This document shows positions 1 through 33,221 of a DNA stretch of 64,000 nucleotides, one piece after another. Position 1 is the stretch's first letter; the number at the start of each line of letters is the position of its first letter. Origin of the DNA: a virus; the IMG/VR virus record IMGVR_UViG_3300025154_000052, positions 1 through 64,000 of that record. One strand, 5' to 3'. A program made the position numbers and the translations under genes. The notes beneath the pieces are model-generated. The model was not told the DNA's origin and did no database searches. It saw only the letters and a program-made list of their open reading frames with translations.

Positions 1-816
1 CGTGCTGCAGGAGGCGCCTTCGCTGGGTTACTCGCCTCTCCACTCCTGCAGCACGGAATGCGCGTGGTCAAGGCTGTACGAGCCTGGGACGCGAAGAAGT
101 ATGAATGGGGGCCAGGTGGGAGCAAGGTCCCCTCGAACGGTCCCATCACAGCCACGTTCGACGCTGTGGACAAAGCATCGGTGAACTTCCTTCGAAAGTC
201 CACCGTCAACTTCGTGACCGACCAGTTTAAACAGCGTTCAGCCCAATGGAGTGAAGCCGCACGCTCCATTACCGCTCGGGGCTTCGAACAGGGGCTATCG
301 GGTGACGAGATCGGTAAGGACCTGTCCAGATGGCTCGAGGTCCGGGGAGGCAATCCAAACTACTATCGCGTTGTGGCCAATGCCTACACGGTGAGGGCTG
401 AAGCCTATGGACACCTGAGCACTTACAGTAAAGCTGGAATTGAGACGGCAATTTTTACAGCTATACTGGACGAGAGGACCAGCGATCAGTGTAGATGGGC
501 TGACGGCAAGTTTGTTAATGTTGGACGCGCGCTTGATTTACTCAAAGGGCTCGAGTCCCTCGATGATCCGATGGACGTCAAGTACGAGAATCCATGGGTC
601 AGAGAGAGACAACTCGACGACGGCAAGAAGGAGATATTCGTCCGTGGCAAGGACGGGACAGACACCGTTCTCGCTGAGATCTCCCGGTCAGGGATGGGGA
701 ACAGGGACGACCGGGGAGAGTACACGGATAAGGTCAACGATATCCTCTCCCAAAGCATAGGGCCCCCTCCACTGCACGGGTTGTGTCGGTCTACACTCCA
801 GCCTGTGATCGTCTGA
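1..816 (+). CDS. Mu gpF/SPP1 gp7-like head morphogenesis protein (5' partial)
   Basis: Minor head protein of the Mu gpF / SPP1 gp7 type, normally bound to the portal inside the procapsid. The frame is open from the first base, so the N-terminus lies outside the window; an internal ATG at 58 would give 252 residues. Visible signature: an internal DERTSDQCRWADG segment followed near the C-terminus by PPPLHGLCRSTL, matching the family pattern of Asp/Cys and a final PPxHxxCR. It is followed by the protease/scaffold gene after about 70 bp, the usual portal - gpF - protease - capsid order. Family call is by motif reading and is fairly secure; the exact role in packaging is inference. Confidence 0.8.
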   Translation, partial: RAAGGAFAGLLASPLLQHGMRVVKAVRAWDAKKYEWGPGGSKVPSNGPITATFDAVDKASVNFLRKSTVNFVTDQFKQRSAQWSEAARSITARGFEQGLSGDEIGKDLSRWLEVRGGNPNYYRVVANAYTVRAEAYGHLSTYSKAGIETAIFTAILDERTSDQCRWADGKFVNVGRALDLLKGLESLDDPMDVKYENPWVRERQLDDGKKEIFVRGKDGTDTVLAEISRSGMGNRDDRGEYTDKVNDILSQSIGPPPLHGLCRSTLQPVIV

Positions 817-884: not shown

Positions 885-3800
885 ATGGCAGACAAATTTC
901 CCGCCCGAATGATTCGTGCCTTCAAAGTCGGTCTGAAGTGGCATAGCGAGGGCTTTAGCGGCGACGGGCTGAAGCCTGAAACGGTGCGTCGTGCTCAGGG
1001 AGTAGTCGACGGGGACACGACTCCGTCTGATGACTGGGTTAAGGAAGCCTCCGCATGGCATTCCCGGCACCACTCCAATGGTGTCAGCAAGATCGACGCA
1101 AGGAAGGCAGACCCAGTCCCGCTTGATGTGGCAACGGCACTCTGGGGAATACTGGGGCCATCGGATGCAAAGTGGTGGGACAACCAGGCACAGGAGCTCG
1201 CAGAAACGATGAAAGACGCCATTGCGATCGTTATCAAGGACACCTACTCTGTCGGCGGACTCCATCGGCTCGACTTCTCCGACGACACCTATCTGTCGGT
1301 GGAGGACGTCGAGAAGTGGCTTGCTGCCAACTTCTACGCCATCGAAGATGACGAGGCTATCACCAAGACGGGGAACCGCTGGGTCGCTACCATCCGTGCC
1401 GAGAGCAAGTTCCAGTCAGGCAATCCCCGCTTTCATCCGCTTCCACTCGGTGATGGCGTGACCGCCTACATCGGCGTCCCGCTGCCCAAGCAGGCTAAGC
1501 CTCCGCGTAAGACCAATAAGCCGGTGGAAGGTGGTCCCATTGTTCCTGAGATCGTGGATGTCGAGTCGCTGGCCTCGGGTGGTGAGGTCAAGACCGAGCC
1601 GACACTGAAGGCCGATGAGCCGACAGCCGACATGACCGATGACGAGGCGAAAGCCGCACAGCAGGCCCGAGCCGGACGGTTCGCCATCGAGATTCTCGAA
1701 AGTACCAACCTTCGATTTCCCAAAGGGTTCCCCATAAGCCTCGAGGACTACGGGGATCCTGTCAATCTCAAGTATCCGCTCATACCGAAGGGGCGACTGC
1801 GGAACGCCCTGTCCCGATTCACCGCCAATTACGAGGAGTATACCAAGCCTCGCTCCCGGAAGATCGTGTTCAGCCGTATCGTGTTAAGGGCACTCCAGGA
1901 AGGTGTCACGGTCGACCCTGATAGCACCCTGGTGAAGACTCTTCTGGCCCCTGATCTGAAGCGGCGCGTGGATGAGCAGGTACAGGAAACCGCCAAGGAG
2001 ATGGTCGCGAAACTGGATCTGGGTGGCGGAACCATTCAGGACTTCATGGCGCTACTCGAGCGGGCCGTTACGAGCGCTGCCAAAGATGGGTTGTGGGGAA
2101 CCTATAATCACAGCGACCACTACTATCCCGGCTACATCCACGCGGTCATGGAGACGGAGGTCATCGTCTACAACTACCGCGATGTGATGTACTACCGTGC
2201 AGGCTGGGCACGGAACGGCGACACGATCACGTTCAGCGACGTCCAGGAAGTCAAGGCGGTAGTTTCATTCATTTCGGTGGAGCCGCCGAAGCCTCCTGAG
2301 TCCGTCACCGTACAGACAGAGAAGATCGATCTGGCCGGACAATCGGTCGAAGTATTCCGGCGTGACATGTACGATGCGGTGAAGAAGGCAGGACTTACAG
2401 GCATCTTCGGACCCACGGATCATGACTACTGCCCGGCCAGTTTGGACGGTGTCTACGAGACATACATTATCGTTTACAACTATCGCAATGATGGCTTCTA
2501 CCAGACCGACTGGACCAAGTCCGCAGATGGCTCAATCACCTTCTCGAACGTAACCCAGGTGGAGGCGGTCGTCTCGTTCAAGCCGGTGGCAAAGCAGTTC
2601 AACAAGACCGATCTGGATGATGTCCTGGCCGACTGGAAACATTTGCCTGCCGAGATGACGCAGGCGTCCGTACTCAAAGCGGTCGCGGACTTCGAAGCGA
2701 AGATCGACGCACTACCTATTCCAAACCGAACACAGACCTACAAGGGCGCAGATGGGAACACGGTGCGACTCGTCCCCATCCTGAAGATCGACGCACCCAA
2801 TCGAATTGTTTCCTACGAGGTCTATCGGCCATACGAGAAGGACACTCACGGGGACTGGATGTCCCCTGAGACGATCTACAACGCCATGACCTTCTGGATG
2901 GAGAAAAGTCAGGAATTCGATGCCGACCACGACTATGCCAAGCGAGACGCGCGAGTCGTTGAGAACTGGCAGGTGAAGTCGGGTGATACCACGGCACCCG
3001 AAGGCACATGGATGCAGTCTGCCAAGATCATGGATGACAGCCTCTGGAAGTCCATTGAGGCAGGTGAATACGGCTATGTGTCCATCGCAGGGACGGCAAA
3101 GCCTGTCCAGGGGAGTGAACCTCCAGCCATGAAAATGAAGCAGAACGCAGAACTCCAAGAGATGGAGGTCTGGAAAGTATCCTTCGTCAATCGAGGTGCC
3201 AATTCAGGCCAGGGTGTGAAGTCGTTCAGTGTCTTCAAGTCGGGCGATGACTTCGAGTCTGAAGCATTGACTCGCATTTTTGACAGTCAGTCAAGTGACG
3301 TGTCAACTTCAAAGCAGAGTATGTGGAAGCGCGTTTGGGACTGGATCGTTGGTGGTCCGGCACAGAGTGAGACTGACAGCTTCCTCAAAGAGTTTGAATC
3401 GACCATCCGGGAGAGTGACATGAAGGATGTACTCAAGGGTATCGCCCAGTTCGTGCGCGAGAACCACCAGAAGGACCCCACGGCAACCGTCCAGGCGCTG
3501 AAGGACGTTCACGGCGGCGTCGGTCTGCTCATCAGCGAGATCGAGAAGACCACCACGAAGCCGACCGAGACCGAGAAGACCGAAGCCGACAAGACCACGG
3601 AAAAGGCTGACATGGCGTGCCCGTCCTGCAAGGCCATGAACACCAAGGAAGCCAAGTTCTGCAGTTCGTGCGGTGGCTCCATGAAGCCGAAGGCCGAGAA
3701 GACCGAGAACGCGGACGCGCTCAAGGAGAAGACCGAGAACGCGGCAGTCGACCCGTCCGTTGCCCTGAAGGCCGAGATGGAAGCGCTCAAGGCACAGATG

Positions 3801-4103
3801 ACCGACTTCACCAAGGCCCAGCAGGCACTGAAGGACGAGAATGCCGTGCTGAAGGCCCAGGCCGATAAGGCCCAGACCGATAAGGCCACAGCTGAGAAGG
3901 ACGCCGCTGCAAAGGCTGCGCTGCTGAAGGATGCCGGGCTGGGTGGCAACACCACGACATCGGACGCTGACGCCGGGAAGCAGAACACCGAGAAGTCCGA
4001 TCCGTGGGCCGAAGTCGACGCCGTGGGCCGATCCTACAAGGTCGCGGGCGCCACGGGCCGTCCCCGTGTGGAGAAGGCGTCGGACGACGACGATTCCTGG
4101 TAA
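885..4103 (+). CDS. XkdF-like prohead protease fused to zinc ribbon and coiled-coil scaffold
   Basis: A 1072-residue multidomain head-maturation protein. Residues about 640-750 resemble the XkdF phage serine protease: HGDWMSPE near 655, a DHDY segment near 680 and EYGYVSIAG near 733 (candidate His/Ser residues). Residues about 400-460 and 500-565 are a tandem duplication (GLWGTYNHSDHY... and GLTGIFGPTDHD..., each ending EAVVSF or KAVVSF). A CPSCK...CSSCG zinc ribbon lies near 909-930 and a Lys/Ala/Glu-rich coiled coil near 955-1030, the usual composition of a scaffold. It directly precedes the major capsid gene, as proteases and scaffolds do. Much longer than typical XkdF proteins; the roles of the N-terminal and duplicated parts are unknown. 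Confidence 0.75.
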   Translation: MADKFPARMIRAFKVGLKWHSEGFSGDGLKPETVRRAQGVVDGDTTPSDDWVKEASAWHSRHHSNGVSKIDARKADPVPLDVATALWGILGPSDAKWWDNQAQELAETMKDAIAIVIKDTYSVGGLHRLDFSDDTYLSVEDVEKWLAANFYAIEDDEAITKTGNRWVATIRAESKFQSGNPRFHPLPLGDGVTAYIGVPLPKQAKPPRKTNKPVEGGPIVPEIVDVESLASGGEVKTEPTLKADEPTADMTDDEAKAAQQARAGRFAIEILESTNLRFPKGFPISLEDYGDPVNLKYPLIPKGRLRNALSRFTANYEEYTKPRSRKIVFSRIVLRALQEGVTVDPDSTLVKTLLAPDLKRRVDEQVQETAKEMVAKLDLGGGTIQDFMALLERAVTSAAKDGLWGTYNHSDHYYPGYIHAVMETEVIVYNYRDVMYYRAGWARNGDTITFSDVQEVKAVVSFISVEPPKPPESVTVQTEKIDLAGQSVEVFRRDMYDAVKKAGLTGIFGPTDHDYCPASLDGVYETYIIVYNYRNDGFYQTDWTKSADGSITFSNVTQVEAVVSFKPVAKQFNKTDLDDVLADWKHLPAEMTQASVLKAVADFEAKIDALPIPNRTQTYKGADGNTVRLVPILKIDAPNRIVSYEVYRPYEKDTHGDWMSPETIYNAMTFWMEKSQEFDADHDYAKRDARVVENWQVKSGDTTAPEGTWMQSAKIMDDSLWKSIEAGEYGYVSIAGTAKPVQGSEPPAMKMKQNAELQEMEVWKVSFVNRGANSGQGVKSFSVFKSGDDFESEALTRIFDSQSSDVSTSKQSMWKRVWDWIVGGPAQSETDSFLKEFESTIRESDMKDVLKGIAQFVRENHQKDPTATVQALKDVHGGVGLLISEIEKTTTKPTETEKTEADKTTEKADMACPSCKAMNTKEAKFCSSCGGSMKPKAEKTENADALKEKTENAAVDPSVALKAEMEALKAQMTDFTKAQQALKDENAVLKAQADKAQTDKATAEKDAAAKAALLKDAGLGGNTTTSDADAGKQNTEKSDPWAEVDAVGRSYKVAGATGRPRVEKASDDDDSW

Positions 4104-4165
4104 TAGCAGCCGCTTCGATTGCTGCGCTGTTGAGCTAAACGCTCTTGCTGATGGGAGAATTTCAG

Positions 4166-5107
4166 ATGGCACAAGATTTCCGTTCTCTGTTCGAAAAAGC
4201 CGATATGGCGCTCGGTGAGCTCACCAGTAATGGAGGTGTGCTCCAGCCCGCACAGGCGGCAAAGTTCGTCGCCAAGATCCTCAGACGGGCCGTGGTCCTG
4301 CCGATGGCGCGAACCGTGACCATGAACGCGCCGAAGCAGCTCGTCGAGAAGATCGGCTTCACCACTCGCGTCATGCGTGCCGGCACGGCTAGAACCGCTC
4401 TCAGTGTGAACGACCGGTCCAAGCCTGTTACAGAGAAGGTGGAACTCGATTCGAAGTACCTCAAGGCCGAGGTTCGGCTGGACACCGCAATCCTCGAGGA
4501 CTCGATCGAGCGGGGAAACCTCCGGACCACGATCATGAACCGGCTGCTCGACGCCGTCCCCCGCGATCTCGACGAACTCGCGGTCAACGGTGACACGACC
4601 AGCTCCGATACCTACCTGGCCGTCATGGACGGGTATGTGAAGTTGGCGACGTCCCACACCTACGACGCCAACGACGCCGAACTCTCCGGCGATGTGTTGC
4701 GTCTCCTGCTCAGGCAGATCCCGGTTCAGTACCGGCGCAGTCTCGAGGACATGGCCTTCCTCACCGGATGGAATGCCGAGGTCGAGTATAGGAACACGTT
4801 CGGTCAGCGGGTGGGTATGGACGCCTACCTGCTGGAGAACAAGCGCATCCAGTACAGCGGCATTCCGCTGGTGCCGGTCGATGTTCATCTCGAGACGCTG
4901 GGAACGAACAGCGACCAGACCACCGTTCTCCTGTCCCCGCGACAGAACATGCTCATCGGCTTCTGGCGCCAGGTCAGCATCAAGACCGACGAGGACATCA
5001 GCAGCGATGAGATCATCGTGGTGGTGACCCTTCGTATGGCCGTGCAGTACGAGGAAGAGGACGCCGTTGCAAAGGCAACGGAAGTTCGAGTGCCGCTGGC
5101 TGCGTAA
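4166..5107 (+). CDS. Major capsid protein
   Basis: Predicted 313-residue major capsid protein of HK97 fold. It follows the protease/scaffold gene, contains the conserved-looking core LDELAVNGDTTSSD...YRRSLEDMAFLTG, and ends with the kind of beta strand (FWRQVSIKTDEDISSDEIIV) seen at the end of HK97-type capsid proteins. Start chosen at ATG 4166 because GGGAG lies 8 bases upstream; an in-frame TTG at 4145 has no such site. The gene probably gives a separate abundant message, since a GC hairpin follows it. The identification rests on position and sequence feel rather than a database match. Confidence 0.85.
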   Translation: MAQDFRSLFEKADMALGELTSNGGVLQPAQAAKFVAKILRRAVVLPMARTVTMNAPKQLVEKIGFTTRVMRAGTARTALSVNDRSKPVTEKVELDSKYLKAEVRLDTAILEDSIERGNLRTTIMNRLLDAVPRDLDELAVNGDTTSSDTYLAVMDGYVKLATSHTYDANDAELSGDVLRLLLRQIPVQYRRSLEDMAFLTGWNAEVEYRNTFGQRVGMDAYLLENKRIQYSGIPLVPVDVHLETLGTNSDQTTVLLSPRQNMLIGFWRQVSIKTDEDISSDEIIVVVTLRMAVQYEEEDAVAKATEVRVPLAA

Positions 5108-5121
5108 TTCGCTGACCGGGT

Positions 5122-5142
5122 CGGGGGCTTAACACGCCCCCG
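5122..5142 (+). terminator. GC hairpin after capsid gene
   Basis: CGGGGGC - 7-base loop - GCCCCCG, a perfect 7-bp stem 15 bases after the capsid stop codon. It is followed by TTCTCC rather than a T run, so it may be a weak terminator, an mRNA 3' end stabiliser or a processing site. Confidence 0.5.
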
Positions 5143-5168
5143 TTCTCCTCAGTTACAGGGAGAGATCT

Positions 5169-6380
5169 ATGAAGGGATTCTTTGGCGATGTCGTTCGCAC
5201 GCTGGTTCGAAAGAGCCACTTCGCAGGCGGTGCGAACCTGAGCGATGCGCCGGCAGACATGCCGAATCGTGCTTCGCTCGCGGCAGTCATCCGGGACCTG
5301 GTGACCGATATTTCGGGCATTCAGCACACCAAGCCCGCCACGGCGGCAGTGAGTGCGCCGGCAGCGGTGACTGTGCAGGGGTCGATTCCCGCTGCTCAGA
5401 ACCCTCTGGCCACGGTGACGGGCGGAACAACGGTCACGGACACTGTCGCTGAGACCGTGTCTCGCACGCTGACGATCGCTACGAACGCGTTGACGTCGGG
5501 CAAGGTCTTCAAGGTGCGGTTCGGGGCGTATTTCCCGTCCACCAATGGCGCGGACACCGCTCGGGTACGTCTGCGACTGGGTGGTGTGGCCGGGACCATC
5601 CTGCTCGACAGCGGCGCCATCGACGTTGCCAACAATGACTTCGTCGTGGGCGACTTCGAAATGGTGGCGACCGGTGCTCCCGGTGCAGCCGTGCCGGTCA
5701 TCGGCTACGGCTACATCTGCGAGCCCAGCGCAGCCGGAAGTCCGATAGTGTCCGGCGTCTCGCTGCCGACAAACACCTTCGCCACCAATGGAGCACTGGA
5801 TCTGGTGGTGACGATTGAGTTCTCGGCGGCAAGCGCGGATAACCAGGGCGTCTGCAACTACTTCCACATCTCGGCACCCGAGACCAACACGCTGGCCACG
5901 GATCACAACCTGGCCGCGACCGACGTCACTAACCTGCGCGCGACGGCAGCAAGCCTGGTGACCCTTACAAACGAACTCAGGACCAACGCCCTGGCGGCCG
6001 GAAAGACCGCGACGGCACGTTCGATCGTGTCCAACAACGCCCAGACGTACAACGTGAACGGCGGGAAGACGTTTGCCTTCCAGTTGGATGGGGTGGCGAT
6101 GTCCTGTCCCATTACCAGTGCAATCGCCACCGCGAACGCCACTGACGCCACTGCAGCCACCGCAGCCGAGGTGGTCACCATGCTCGAGAAGGCCGGGCTG
6201 AACCGGCTGGGCGTAGTCCCGAGCGTGAGCGGTGGGACGAAGGTGGCGCTCACCACGTCTCGGAAGGGTGCGTCCCGGACGCTCAACACCTTCTCCGGCA
6301 CGCTCGAAACTGTACTCGATCTTACCGGTGGTGTGGCCACGGCCGGCACCGGCTACGAGTCCCTGGTGGGTAACGCGTAG
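5169..6380 (+). CDS. Putative head fibre/decoration protein
   Basis: 403 residues, rich in Ala/Thr/Val and predicted all-beta in the first two thirds (VRLRLGGVAGTILLDSG, LDLVVTIEFSAASADN). The last ~150 residues (TNLRATAASLVTLTNELRTN) look helical then beta. GGGAG sits 7 bases before ATG 5169. Immediately downstream of the capsid gene, so a capsid decoration or head fibre role is the natural inference, but no family is recognised with certainty. Confidence 0.55.
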   Translation: MKGFFGDVVRTLVRKSHFAGGANLSDAPADMPNRASLAAVIRDLVTDISGIQHTKPATAAVSAPAAVTVQGSIPAAQNPLATVTGGTTVTDTVAETVSRTLTIATNALTSGKVFKVRFGAYFPSTNGADTARVRLRLGGVAGTILLDSGAIDVANNDFVVGDFEMVATGAPGAAVPVIGYGYICEPSAAGSPIVSGVSLPTNTFATNGALDLVVTIEFSAASADNQGVCNYFHISAPETNTLATDHNLAATDVTNLRATAASLVTLTNELRTNALAAGKTATARSIVSNNAQTYNVNGGKTFAFQLDGVAMSCPITSAIATANATDATAATAAEVVTMLEKAGLNRLGVVPSVSGGTKVALTTSRKGASRTLNTFSGTLETVLDLTGGVATAGTGYESLVGNA

Positions 6381-30414: not shown

Positions 30415-32089
30415 CGTGCAGTTCCTTCTTTGCGCATCGTGGTTTCTTCACGACTGCACTCTGTTCACCGGTTGTCTTCGCCTCATCCAGCGCTTTACGC
30501 AGTATGTTCACAGCCGCGTTGATGTCGCGATCATGAGACACACCACACACCGGACATGTCCATGTTCTCACCGACATCGGCAGATCGTCCACTCGCTCAC
30601 CACATGCAGAGCATATCTTGCTCGATGCGGACCACTTATCGATCCGCACCGACCGACCGCCATACGCCGGCGCCTTGTACTCGAGTTGCCGGCGGAATTC
30701 CCCAGGGCATGCGTCGGTCAGACTGCGCTGGAATCCGCGCTTGCGCTTCCCTTCGCCGGTCATCTTCTCTGCGTTCTGAGTCTTCATCTCGTTGAAGTTG
30801 ATGTCCTCCAGTCCGATAAAACTGTAGGTCTGCACGATGCGAGTTGTGGCCTTGTGCATGTGATCATTACGCTGATTGGCGGCATGCTGCTGGAGTTTGG
30901 TGATCTTCGCCTCAAGGTCGATCATGCGCTGTGACTTCTGGCGACCACACCCCCGGCACCGACGACAGCGCTTTGACTCGTCCTCCAGATCCTTCCCGGT
31001 GCCCTTGCAGACCTCACATGTCACTGCCCGCCTATCCTGGACCTGGCCTGCACCAGAGCACCGCTTGCATTCCTTCTTCTTGTCCGGTTCACCAGCGCAC
31101 GCCGGGCACGGAAGCCAGATACTCTTGAGACTGATGGCCTGATTGAGTTTCGCGATCCGTGGTTCGTTCTTTCGTGCAGCGTGGAGGTTATCGATCTTCT
31201 CACCAGTGGAGAGAGTGGCAGTTGACGCTACGCCAAGATCGACACCGACTGATGGACCGGCATGCGCGGCAGGATCGGGAACGGTAATATCCATCACCTG
31301 AATAGATGCGTACCAATGCCGGTTGTCCTCGAAGACTCGAGCAGACGCAACCCGCCCTTGAAAACGCAGTTCTTCTGCCATCGTAATGCGCTGATGGTAT
31401 TTGTTCCCAGTGAACACGAAGTGTTTGCCATCAACGCCAAATATCGCGTTGCAGCCACTCTTGTCTGAACCCGGCAGAAGAAAACTCTTCCCGCTGCTTC
31501 TGTTCTTGAATCGCGGATGACCACATCCCATCCATGCGGGGAAATCCTTACACCAGCAGTTCTTGTCATCCTTACGGCGTGAGCATGGCTTTGAACCACA
31601 CTCCTTGAAATACTTATTCCACGCCTTGTTGAGGTCGATGAATGCATTGAAGCCGACCATCGCAGGCACGGCATTTGCGATTACTGCACCACGCAGTTGC
31701 CCGGATGCCGATGTCTTCTTGACCTGTGTCCATGCCGCACTCGCAGGAGCAGAGTCCCAACCTGTGGGAGCCCGCTTCAACCGATCATCATCTGTATAAC
31801 TTGCCCATTCAACCTTGGGCTTGCTCTGCTTTTTCTTTTTATCGTCAGACACTTCAGTCTTTTTCTTTTTACGCTTTGATTCTTTCTTGGGTTTCAGTGC
31901 TGGATCACGGGCCAGTCGTTCGGCGTCTGAGAGTGCATTCCAGTCGGCAATGACGCGACGATTCGACTCAATTAAGAATGACAGCCCGAAGTTCCAGGCG
32001 GTGCGAGCCACGAAGGCGCAGTCTTGGAGAAAGCGTTCCTGCTCTTTGGTGGGGAACAGACGTATTCTGTGCGACCTTGATATGTTCAC
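30404..32089 (-). CDS. TnpB/Cas12-like RuvC nuclease, candidate type V CRISPR effector
   Basis: 561 residues; start GTG 32089 chosen because GGAGG lies 5 bases upstream (a GTG four codons earlier lacks a site). N-terminus RSHRIRLFPTKEQERFLQDC is the TnpB/Cas12 opening; a Lys-rich insert follows at 66-92; GHPRFKN near 190-196 is the TnpB 'PRFK' motif, here preceded by Cys 164, 169, 178, 180 and 189. RuvC-I VGVDLGVAS (D284), RuvC-II FIGLEDINFNEM (E428) and RuvC-III HDRDINAAVNI (D522) are all intact, with the C-terminal zinc ribbon (Cys 493/496/512/515). Between RuvC-I and RuvC-II lies a DnaJ-like four-CxxC domain (Cys 328/331, 341/344, 358/361, 375/378). Read leftward straight from array 1. No tnpA or IS ends are seen, so an RNA-guided nuclease using the adjacent arrays is inferred. 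Confidence 0.85.
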   Translation of the reverse strand: MNISRSHRIRLFPTKEQERFLQDCAFVARTAWNFGLSFLIESNRRVIADWNALSDAERLARDPALKPKKESKRKKKKTEVSDDKKKKQSKPKVEWASYTDDDRLKRAPTGWDSAPASAAWTQVKKTSASGQLRGAVIANAVPAMVGFNAFIDLNKAWNKYFKECGSKPCSRRKDDKNCWCKDFPAWMGCGHPRFKNRSSGKSFLLPGSDKSGCNAIFGVDGKHFVFTGNKYHQRITMAEELRFQGRVASARVFEDNRHWYASIQVMDITVPDPAAHAGPSVGVDLGVASTATLSTGEKIDNLHAARKNEPRIAKLNQAISLKSIWLPCPACAGEPDKKKECKRCSGAGQVQDRRAVTCEVCKGTGKDLEDESKRCRRCRGCGRQKSQRMIDLEAKITKLQQHAANQRNDHMHKATTRIVQTYSFIGLEDINFNEMKTQNAEKMTGEGKRKRGFQRSLTDACPGEFRRQLEYKAPAYGGRSVRIDKWSASSKICSACGERVDDLPMSVRTWTCPVCGVSHDRDINAAVNILRKALDEAKTTGEQSAVVKKPRCAKKELHDAR

Positions 32090-32097
32090 TTCCGCCT

Positions 32098-32348
32098 CCA
32101 CTCTACACTTTGCTACTCAGCATCCGCTGTCACGCGCCGGTGGTAAACAGATGGGCTGGATCGAGCAGCTCACAATGGTTCTCGCTACTCAGCATCCGCT
32201 GTCACGCAGATCGGGGGGCGGTCATGATTACCAAACCTGTCACAATGGTTCTCGCTACTCAGCATCCGCTGTCACGTCTCTTTCCAGGCGGTTACGTCGC
32301 ACACCTCTTCGGTCACAATGGTTCTCGCTACTCAGCATCCGCTGTCAC
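32098..32348 (-). CRISPR. CRISPR array 1 (3 intact 36-nt repeats plus 1 degenerate)
   Basis: Intact repeats at 32170-32205, 32240-32275 and 32313-32348 are identical over 36 nt (minus strand begins GTGACAGCGG and ends ACCATTGTGA). A degenerate copy at 32098-32133 keeps its leader-distal ~23 nt. Spacers: 36 nt (32134-32169), 34 nt (32206-32239), 37 nt (32276-32312), all different. The decayed copy on the left marks the trailer, so the leader is on the right and transcription is leftward into the nuclease gene, whose start codon lies 8 bases after the last repeat. Confidence 0.9.
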
Positions 32349-32462
32349 TGCCTCACTAAATTTGTAAGGTGTAGCAACCATTTGCGAGCACGTAGCGCGA
32401 ACCTTCGCGTTTCCAGTTGAGCGTCAACTATATCCGCGCTTATACCGATGTGTGCTCACCGG
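32349..32462 (-). promoter_or_regulatory. Leader 1, with shared block and possible promoter
   Basis: Non-coding. A block at 32402-32462, 53 bp from the last repeat, aligns with leader 2 over ~60 bp with one indel. It contains the dyad AGTTGA-gcg-TCAACT (32415-32429) and CGCGAA-cc-TTCGCG (32396-32409). On the minus strand TATAAG preceded 16 bases earlier by TTTACC is a possible promoter, not conserved in leader 2. Confidence 0.65.
32371..32382 (-). ncRNA. Anti-repeat candidate (tracrRNA or leader hairpin)
   Basis: The minus-strand RNA here (AATGGTTGCTAC) can pair with GTAGC and AACCATT of the array 1 repeat, giving 12 bp with a 3-nt bulge (GAG). It could be a tracrRNA anti-repeat or a hairpin between leader and first repeat. 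No comparable perfect match was found in leader 2. Confidence 0.35.
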
Positions 32463-32547
32463 TAAATACCTGAAATCTATTGTTTATTTTTCTTGTCTAT
32501 ACCTGCGCGAACCTGCCTGTGTTTTGATGTTTGCTACAGGTCCGCGA

Positions 32548-32855
32548 TCATTCTAGTCACTCCCAACGATCAGCTATTGTCAGCCATTACCCATCTCATC
32601 AGTGCCCTCAATGGCACTCCCAACGATCAGACATTGTCAGGTGTTGTGCACTGGTCGATCGGTTTTACCCAGACGCCCTCAATGGCACTCCCAACGATCA
32701 GACATTGTCAGTGTTAGCTGTAAGTGAGGTTAAAGTGGCAAGTATCGTCCCTCAATGGCACTCCCAACGATCAGACATTGTCAGCCGGGACTGTGTCAGC
32801 AGCAGCCGCACGCAGTGCGCCCTCAATGGCACTCCCAACGATCAGACATTGTCAG
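32548..32855 (-). CRISPR. CRISPR array 2 (4 intact 36-nt repeats plus 1 degenerate)
   Basis: Intact repeats at 32605-32640, 32676-32711, 32749-32784 and 32820-32855 are identical (minus strand begins CTGACAATGT and ends GCCATTGAGGG). A degenerate copy at 32548-32583 lies at the left end. Spacers: 21 nt (32584-32604, atypically short), 35 nt (32641-32675), 37 nt (32712-32748), 35 nt (32785-32819). The repeat differs from array 1 but shares TGACA near the 5' end and CCATTG near the 3' end; its CAATG and CATTG words can pair. Same orientation as array 1. Confidence 0.92.
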
Positions 32856-32971
32856 GGCTGCCACCAAGACGCCAGCAATTCCAATGGCTTATGATCACGT
32901 TTTCGAGCGCCTTCGCGTTTCCGGTTAAGGTTTAACCATTGACGCGCTTAAGCCGACGCTAAGTTCACCGG
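32856..32971 (-). promoter_or_regulatory. Leader 2, homologous to leader 1
   Basis: The block 32910-32971 starts 54 bp from the last repeat, matching leader 1 (53 bp). It contains CCTTCGCGTTTCC, then the dyad GGTTAA-ggt-TTAACC (32923-32937) at the same offset as leader 1's dyad, then CGCGCTTA and TTCACCGG. Two base pairs of the dyad differ between leaders by compensatory change. Confidence 0.65.
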
Positions 32972-33221
32972 CTATCAACTAGTTGAACGTCGTAACGTCC
33001 AATCCTGTATTCAGTTTTCAAAACTCGGTATAGACCATCTGGTCATGCGAGCGACCCCCGGGATCTGAGACATCGCCGGGCCGCTCGAAAAAGGATGTCG
33101 AAGGTGCTCTCATGAGTCATGAGAATTGGCCGATCACCGTAGAGCCTTAGCACCGACGACATGAACCCAGTCTAGCACGAATCATTAAACTAGTCTCTAA
33201 AATAATCCGTGCCAGGAGGTT
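32972..33221. other. Non-coding region with serial inverted repeats
   Basis: 250 bp without a credible gene. GACCA-tc-TGGTC (33033-33044); CGAGCG...CGCTCG enclosing CCCGG...CCGGG (33048-33087) followed by AAAAA; TCTCATGA-g-TCATGAGA (33108-33124), a perfect 17-bp palindrome; imperfect 12-bp arms at 33175-33212 (10 of 12 matching). May hold a structured RNA or operators controlling the CRISPR locus. Confidence 0.5.

Follow-up and report, generated by a model that had tools for sequence, protein, structure and literature searches.

Two diverged scaffold-plus-array units, probably tracrRNA-like, beside a single TnpB-like Cas12 gene in a tailed phage

Why should two CRISPR arrays with different repeats, lying side by side in a phage genome, each be bordered by a similar block of sequence with a perfect inverted repeat inside it? 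The question arises in the 64,000 nt that open a virus record of 137,577 bp (this stretch is called the window below). The record comes from a tailed phage, and its genes include those for tail sheath and baseplate. Since the two ends of the record are identical over 126 bp (window 7-132 against the last 126 bases), the genome is probably circular and its assembly complete, at about 137.4 kb. Read on the minus strand, the locus runs from block 2 through array 2, block 1 and array 1 to an effector gene, both blocks (hereafter also scaffolds) lying upstream of arrays and both arrays upstream of the effector gene (Table 1). No Cas1 or Cas2 was found in the whole 137.6-kb record, and gain of spacers would therefore need help from the host or recombination.

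Table 1. Positions of the arrays, scaffolds, antirepeats and effector in the window
Feature	Position	Strand	Description
Array 1	32098..32348	-	3 intact 36-nt repeats GTGACAGCGGATGCTGAGTAGCGAGAACCATTGTGA and 1 degenerate distal repeat, 32098-32134
Block-proximal spacer of array 1	32276..32312	-	37 bp identical to own genome, 106058-106094
Antirepeat 1	32392..32403	-	GGUUCGCGCUAC, pairs with R1 GUAGCGAGAACC, 11/12
Scaffold 1 (first block)	32402..32448	-	TATAAGCGCG, dyad, GGAAACGCGAAGG
Dyad/hairpin 1	32415..32429	-	RNA AGUUGA-CGC-UCAACU
Array 2	32547..32855	-	4 intact 36-nt repeats CTGACAATGTCTGATCGTTGGGAGTGCCATTGAGGG and 1 degenerate distal repeat, 32547-32584
Antirepeat 2	32892..32911	-	GGCGCUCGAAAACGUGAUCA; GGCGCUC pairs with R2 GAGUGCC, 7/7, then GUU, UGAUC
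Scaffold 2 (second block)	32910..32956	-	CTTAAGCGCG, dyad, GGAAACGCGAAGG
Dyad/hairpin 2	32923..32937	-	RNA GGUUAA-ACC-UUAACC
TnpB-like Cas12 effector, 565 aa	30404..32101	-	RuvC D288, E432 and DRD 524-526 present
Zinc-finger insert, residues 330-396	30914..31114	-	Four CxxCxGxG-like motifs; DnaJ models matched

An earlier, sequence-only reading had proposed that the two arrays share a block with a covarying dyad, and on re-examination the likeness held. The blocks align without a gap over 47 bp, with 36 identical positions (77%) and 11 mismatches, and lie 53 and 54 bp from the 36-nt repeats, as had been claimed; the wider flanks (32350-32546 and 32857-33221) reached an alignment score of 72 against a maximum of 55 among 1000 dinucleotide shuffles. 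Both 6-3-6 dyads are perfect and begin 13 bases into their block, reading AGTTGA-GCG-TCAACT and GGTTAA-GGT-TTAACC on the plus strand, and all four arm differences between them are compensatory, giving the two changed base pairs originally reported. When 11 substitutions were placed at random, a dyad that was still perfect with at least two pairs changed appeared in a fraction of 6.4e-4 of trials, and given four arm substitutions a perfect dyad was retained in 0.0034, the covariation being that between two sequences, the only ones that carry the scaffold. Upstream of the dyad, CCGGTGA and TATAAG/CTTAAG are conserved in both blocks. Run over the record, a covariance model of the scaffold matched the two blocks and nothing else, and a search of Rfam returned chance matches only, no family fitting the scaffolds. 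Upstream of block 2 on the minus strand, about 265 bp (window 32957-33221) are non-coding, and the first bases of this stretch can be aligned with sequence flanking block 1.

The repeats had been described as different, and their sequences do differ, but they are related, sharing TGACA at the 5' end and GAG--CCATTG-G at the 3' end (minus strand). In each array the degenerate repeat stands at the end far from the block, which places the blocks on the upstream side for a minus-strand reading. Read as minus-strand RNA, each block comprises its hairpin, the stretch GGAAACGCGAA and an antirepeat (GGUUCGCGCUAC in block 1, GGCGCUCGAAAACGUGAUCA in block 2), and the crRNA repeats end in GUAGCGAGAACC-AUUGUGA (R1) and UGAUCGUUGGGAGUGCC-AUUGAGGG (R2). 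The two copies share one register: conserved CGA-A-GG lies opposite the conserved CC-A-UUG of the repeat, with CGA pairing with UUG across an A-A mismatch, and the bases that follow differ between the arrays yet pair with their own repeat. In this shared register the sequences give two changes from copy to copy, U-A to C-G and U-A to G-U. Beyond the 7/7 helix of R2, AAC pairs with GUU and GAUCA with UGAUC. Uninterrupted helices measure 5-7 bp and total pairing about 14-18 bp per copy, and an antirepeat complementary to the repeat, as expected of a tracrRNA, is present in both copies. Another candidate antirepeat in block 1, CAAAUGGUUGCUAC, was dropped, having no counterpart in block 2.

Because the pairing was first spotted by eye, the tests applied to it were widened. 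In a joint test, the two 150-nt flanks were aligned at the conserved block and scored in each of 24 repeat registers at 120 offsets, all within 60 nt, the score being that of the weaker of the two helices. Own pairs scored 19, with the same offset and register for both antirepeats, against a maximum of 17 in 3000 dinucleotide shuffles; swapped repeats scored 9 and the plus strand 12, and the plus-strand reading was dropped on that score. In an anchored version of the test none of 2000 shuffles reached the observed value. When duplex energies were computed for the first 22 nt, own pairs came out significant (P 0.013 and 0.019) and swapped ones did not (P 0.71 and 0.24), and cofolding gained -17.5 and -11.8 kcal/mol with the array's own repeat against -6.1 and -5.7 kcal/mol when the repeats were swapped. 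Taken across the full 55-nt gap, the energies of the single duplexes were weak (P 0.06 and 0.15), and in a 16-kb scan the R2 antirepeat was not among the best R2 matches. The case for pairing rests on agreement of place and register, each duplex taken singly being only moderately strong.

This agreement bears on what the blocks are. They had been taken for leaders serving transcription or past adaptation, in which the dyad would bind a regulator or mark where transcription starts or where spacers were once integrated, a proposal that we now regard as improbable. Such leaders would suit the position of the blocks, each adjacent to the leader-side repeat of its array, and CCGGTGA with TATAAG/CTTAAG could be promoter elements, which may coexist with a tracrRNA. 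However, leaders do not predict array-specific complementarity to the repeat in one shared register, two compensated pairs with different half-sites would be unusual for a single protein site, the record lacks Cas1/Cas2, and neither a sigma-70-type promoter nor an intrinsic terminator was recognised. The array-specific antirepeat, found in the same register in both copies, points instead to a tracrRNA gene. The compensatory changes uphold the earlier suggestion that the dyad is selected and, of the two forms then offered for it, a protein site or an RNA hairpin, the hairpin is the better option.

We also doubt that the second unit is a silent relic of duplication, alike by common descent only, with array 1 working alone. 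Array 2 does lie farther from the effector gene, and its antirepeat duplex is the weaker one; against this, neutral decay would not give compensatory changes in both hairpin and antirepeat, and the four repeats of array 2 are near-identical. The short uninterrupted helices could also bring to mind the scoutRNA, the RNA of short complementarity that serves Cas12c and Cas12d. That the blocks encode a helper of this kind rather than a tracrRNA seems very unlikely, since the total pairing in each copy is tracrRNA-sized.

A tracrRNA would need a protein partner, and the candidate adjoins array 1. Its best PADLOC profile was Cas12u4 (3e-66), its NCBIfam match guided_TnpB (4.3e-61) and its Pfam matches Cas12f1-like_TNB, OrfB_IS605 and HTH_OrfB, and the RuvC residues align with TnpB motifs, leaving the catalytic motifs intact. 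An AlphaFold model (mean pLDDT 72) found its best fold matches in TnpB and LaTranC, and RdCas12n was a top sequence match in the PDB. Judged by these matches the effector is a Cas12 of the TnpB lineage and, as in type V systems, a single RuvC effector of TnpB ancestry thus adjoins an array with its catalytic residues present. Between RuvC-I and RuvC-II it carries an insert that resembles the DnaJ zinc-finger domain (the PF00684 match being weak, below cut-off) and that falls in a gap of the alignment, being absent from the TnpB relatives aligned. In free trees the protein formed a long branch whose neighbours were IS607-like TnpBs and two further phage proteins, L020 and L021, and did not group with the actinobacterial loci presumed to be Cas12n-like; a clade uniting them was not rejected by an AU test (p 0.32).

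Taken with the pairing, these features make it likely that the locus is a duplicated scaffold-plus-array unit in which tracrRNA and repeats have co-diverged, so that one effector would use two cognate guide sets. On the minus strand, immediately before its array, each block would supply the central part of a tracrRNA-like gene, whose RNA would consist of the short hairpin encoded by the dyad, the conserved GGAAACGCGAA stretch and the antirepeat. The antirepeat would pair with the 3' half of its own repeat, first CGA-A-GG opposite CC-A-UUG and then through the array-specific pairs, and the lone TnpB-like Cas12 would bind the resulting tracrRNA:crRNA duplex and then cut DNA matching the spacers. 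From the sequence we infer transcription of these RNAs, their maturation into guides, binding by the effector and cutting of targets. After the duplication that would have produced the two units, the parts recognised by the protein (hairpin, GGAAACGCGAAGG and CCAUUG) would have stayed constant whilst antirepeat and repeat changed together, and each tracrRNA would prefer its own crRNAs. The earlier idea that one effector serves two repeat families is plausible on these terms, each array having its own scaffold beside a single TnpB-like Cas12.

Parts of this arrangement have precedents. Type V effectors that use a tracrRNA are already known (PMC11641405, PMC12669027), as are CRISPR systems borne by phages (PMC11656645). 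Cas12n (V-N/V-U4, C2c9; V-U4 being its former name) uses a tracrRNA, which is located inside the cas12n mRNA (PMC11641405). The phage system resembles it in combining a small TnpB-like effector, with Cas12u4 as best PADLOC profile, and a putative tracrRNA, but its two putative scaffolds lie upstream of two arrays, which in turn precede the gene. Its 36-nt repeats also differ from the 29-nt repeats of the actinobacterial loci L071 and L078. Comparison of the 3' end of the phage effector gene with the two blocks was not significant (P 0.13 and 0.42), and that gene end was dropped as a source of the scaffold. IS607-type TnpBs, which work with an omegaRNA encoded at the 3' end of their gene and have the guide beside the end of the element, rank with the closest relatives in sequence (about 30-40% identity) and in fold, and have a C-terminal KPxxxKxE tail similar to that of the phage effector; unlike them, the phage protein would take its guides from arrays, carries the zinc-finger insert and has its two recognised scaffolds away from the 3' end of its gene, where the 3'-end motif of the IS607 relatives was not seen by eye. 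LaTranC, a TnpB-to-Cas12 intermediate, was the third best fold match, and its guide is presumably split into scaffold and crRNA, as is proposed here; two scaffold-array units are not known to be part of it.

Among relatives, one distant phage locus shares the architecture. In L021 (IMGVR_UViG_3300022682_000042, 3382-5470) a TnpB-like effector has an array on either side, the two arrays being in opposite orientation and differing in their repeats, and the flanks of the two arrays are similar (P 3e-4). Unlike the repeats of the window, those of L021 are 29 nt long and near-palindromic, and one of the scaffolds overlaps the effector gene at its 3' end, the place where TnpB guide RNAs are usually encoded. 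This gene-end flank resembles the blocks of the window, block 2 with P 0.007 and block 1 with P 0.048, the values being uncorrected for four comparisons. For the dyad, whose conservation in related phages had been put forward as a check, the check covered this one distant locus: one flank of L021 has a perfect 6-3-6 (GGTTGA-TGG-TCAACC, after ATAAGCG), and the second lacks a perfect one. Stretches complementary to the repeats occur at matching places (0 of 2000 shuffles), but the pairing is ambiguous: cofold energies do not favour own pairs and the 'antirepeat' could be a decayed repeat, the repeats being near-palindromic. L021 hence supports the architecture and not the pairing. Scans with single proteins over viral and genome contigs gave no close relatives of the effector, and the scaffold model found nothing convincing outside the two blocks across 78 sources. 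DNA-pattern scans for the block gave nothing apart from a chance match in L180, which was set aside, having neither array nor effector. A scan with the tail sheath found only a sister contig, which is without the locus. One further viral contig has a repeat array (L085:4808-5169; 36-nt copies at a spacing of 62-67) near a TnpB-like gene.

The effector probably serves as a nuclease against rival mobile elements, yet the only spacer target found was in the phage itself. Searches of the array spacers against phages and plasmids gave no convincing matches, and of two spacers scanned in viral contigs, neither matched anything beyond the sister contig. In array 1, the spacer nearest the block matches the phage genome where an 80-aa open frame ends (L011:2045-2287, minus strand), and this protospacer is also present in the sister contig, G001. 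Its 5' flank, TTCACC, is unlike the repeat; the PAM of Cas12n is AAN. We consider it unlikely, if conceivable, that the two units are mutually exclusive guide channels, with tracrRNA 1 remaining attached to the first repeat-spacer of its array to form a natural single guide against a gene of the phage itself, channel 1 regulating or marking self and the other attacking competitors.

No account of a single effector served by two co-diverged tracrRNA-array pairs came up in the open-licence literature searched. The presence of two diverged units of scaffold and array next to one effector amounts to a natural compensatory-change experiment, and comparison of the two units suggests which parts must stay fixed for the protein (hairpin, GGAAACGCGAAGG and CCAUUG) and which only need to pair. 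Ultimately, such a locus may yield a pair of orthogonal guide sets to be used with one small nuclease.
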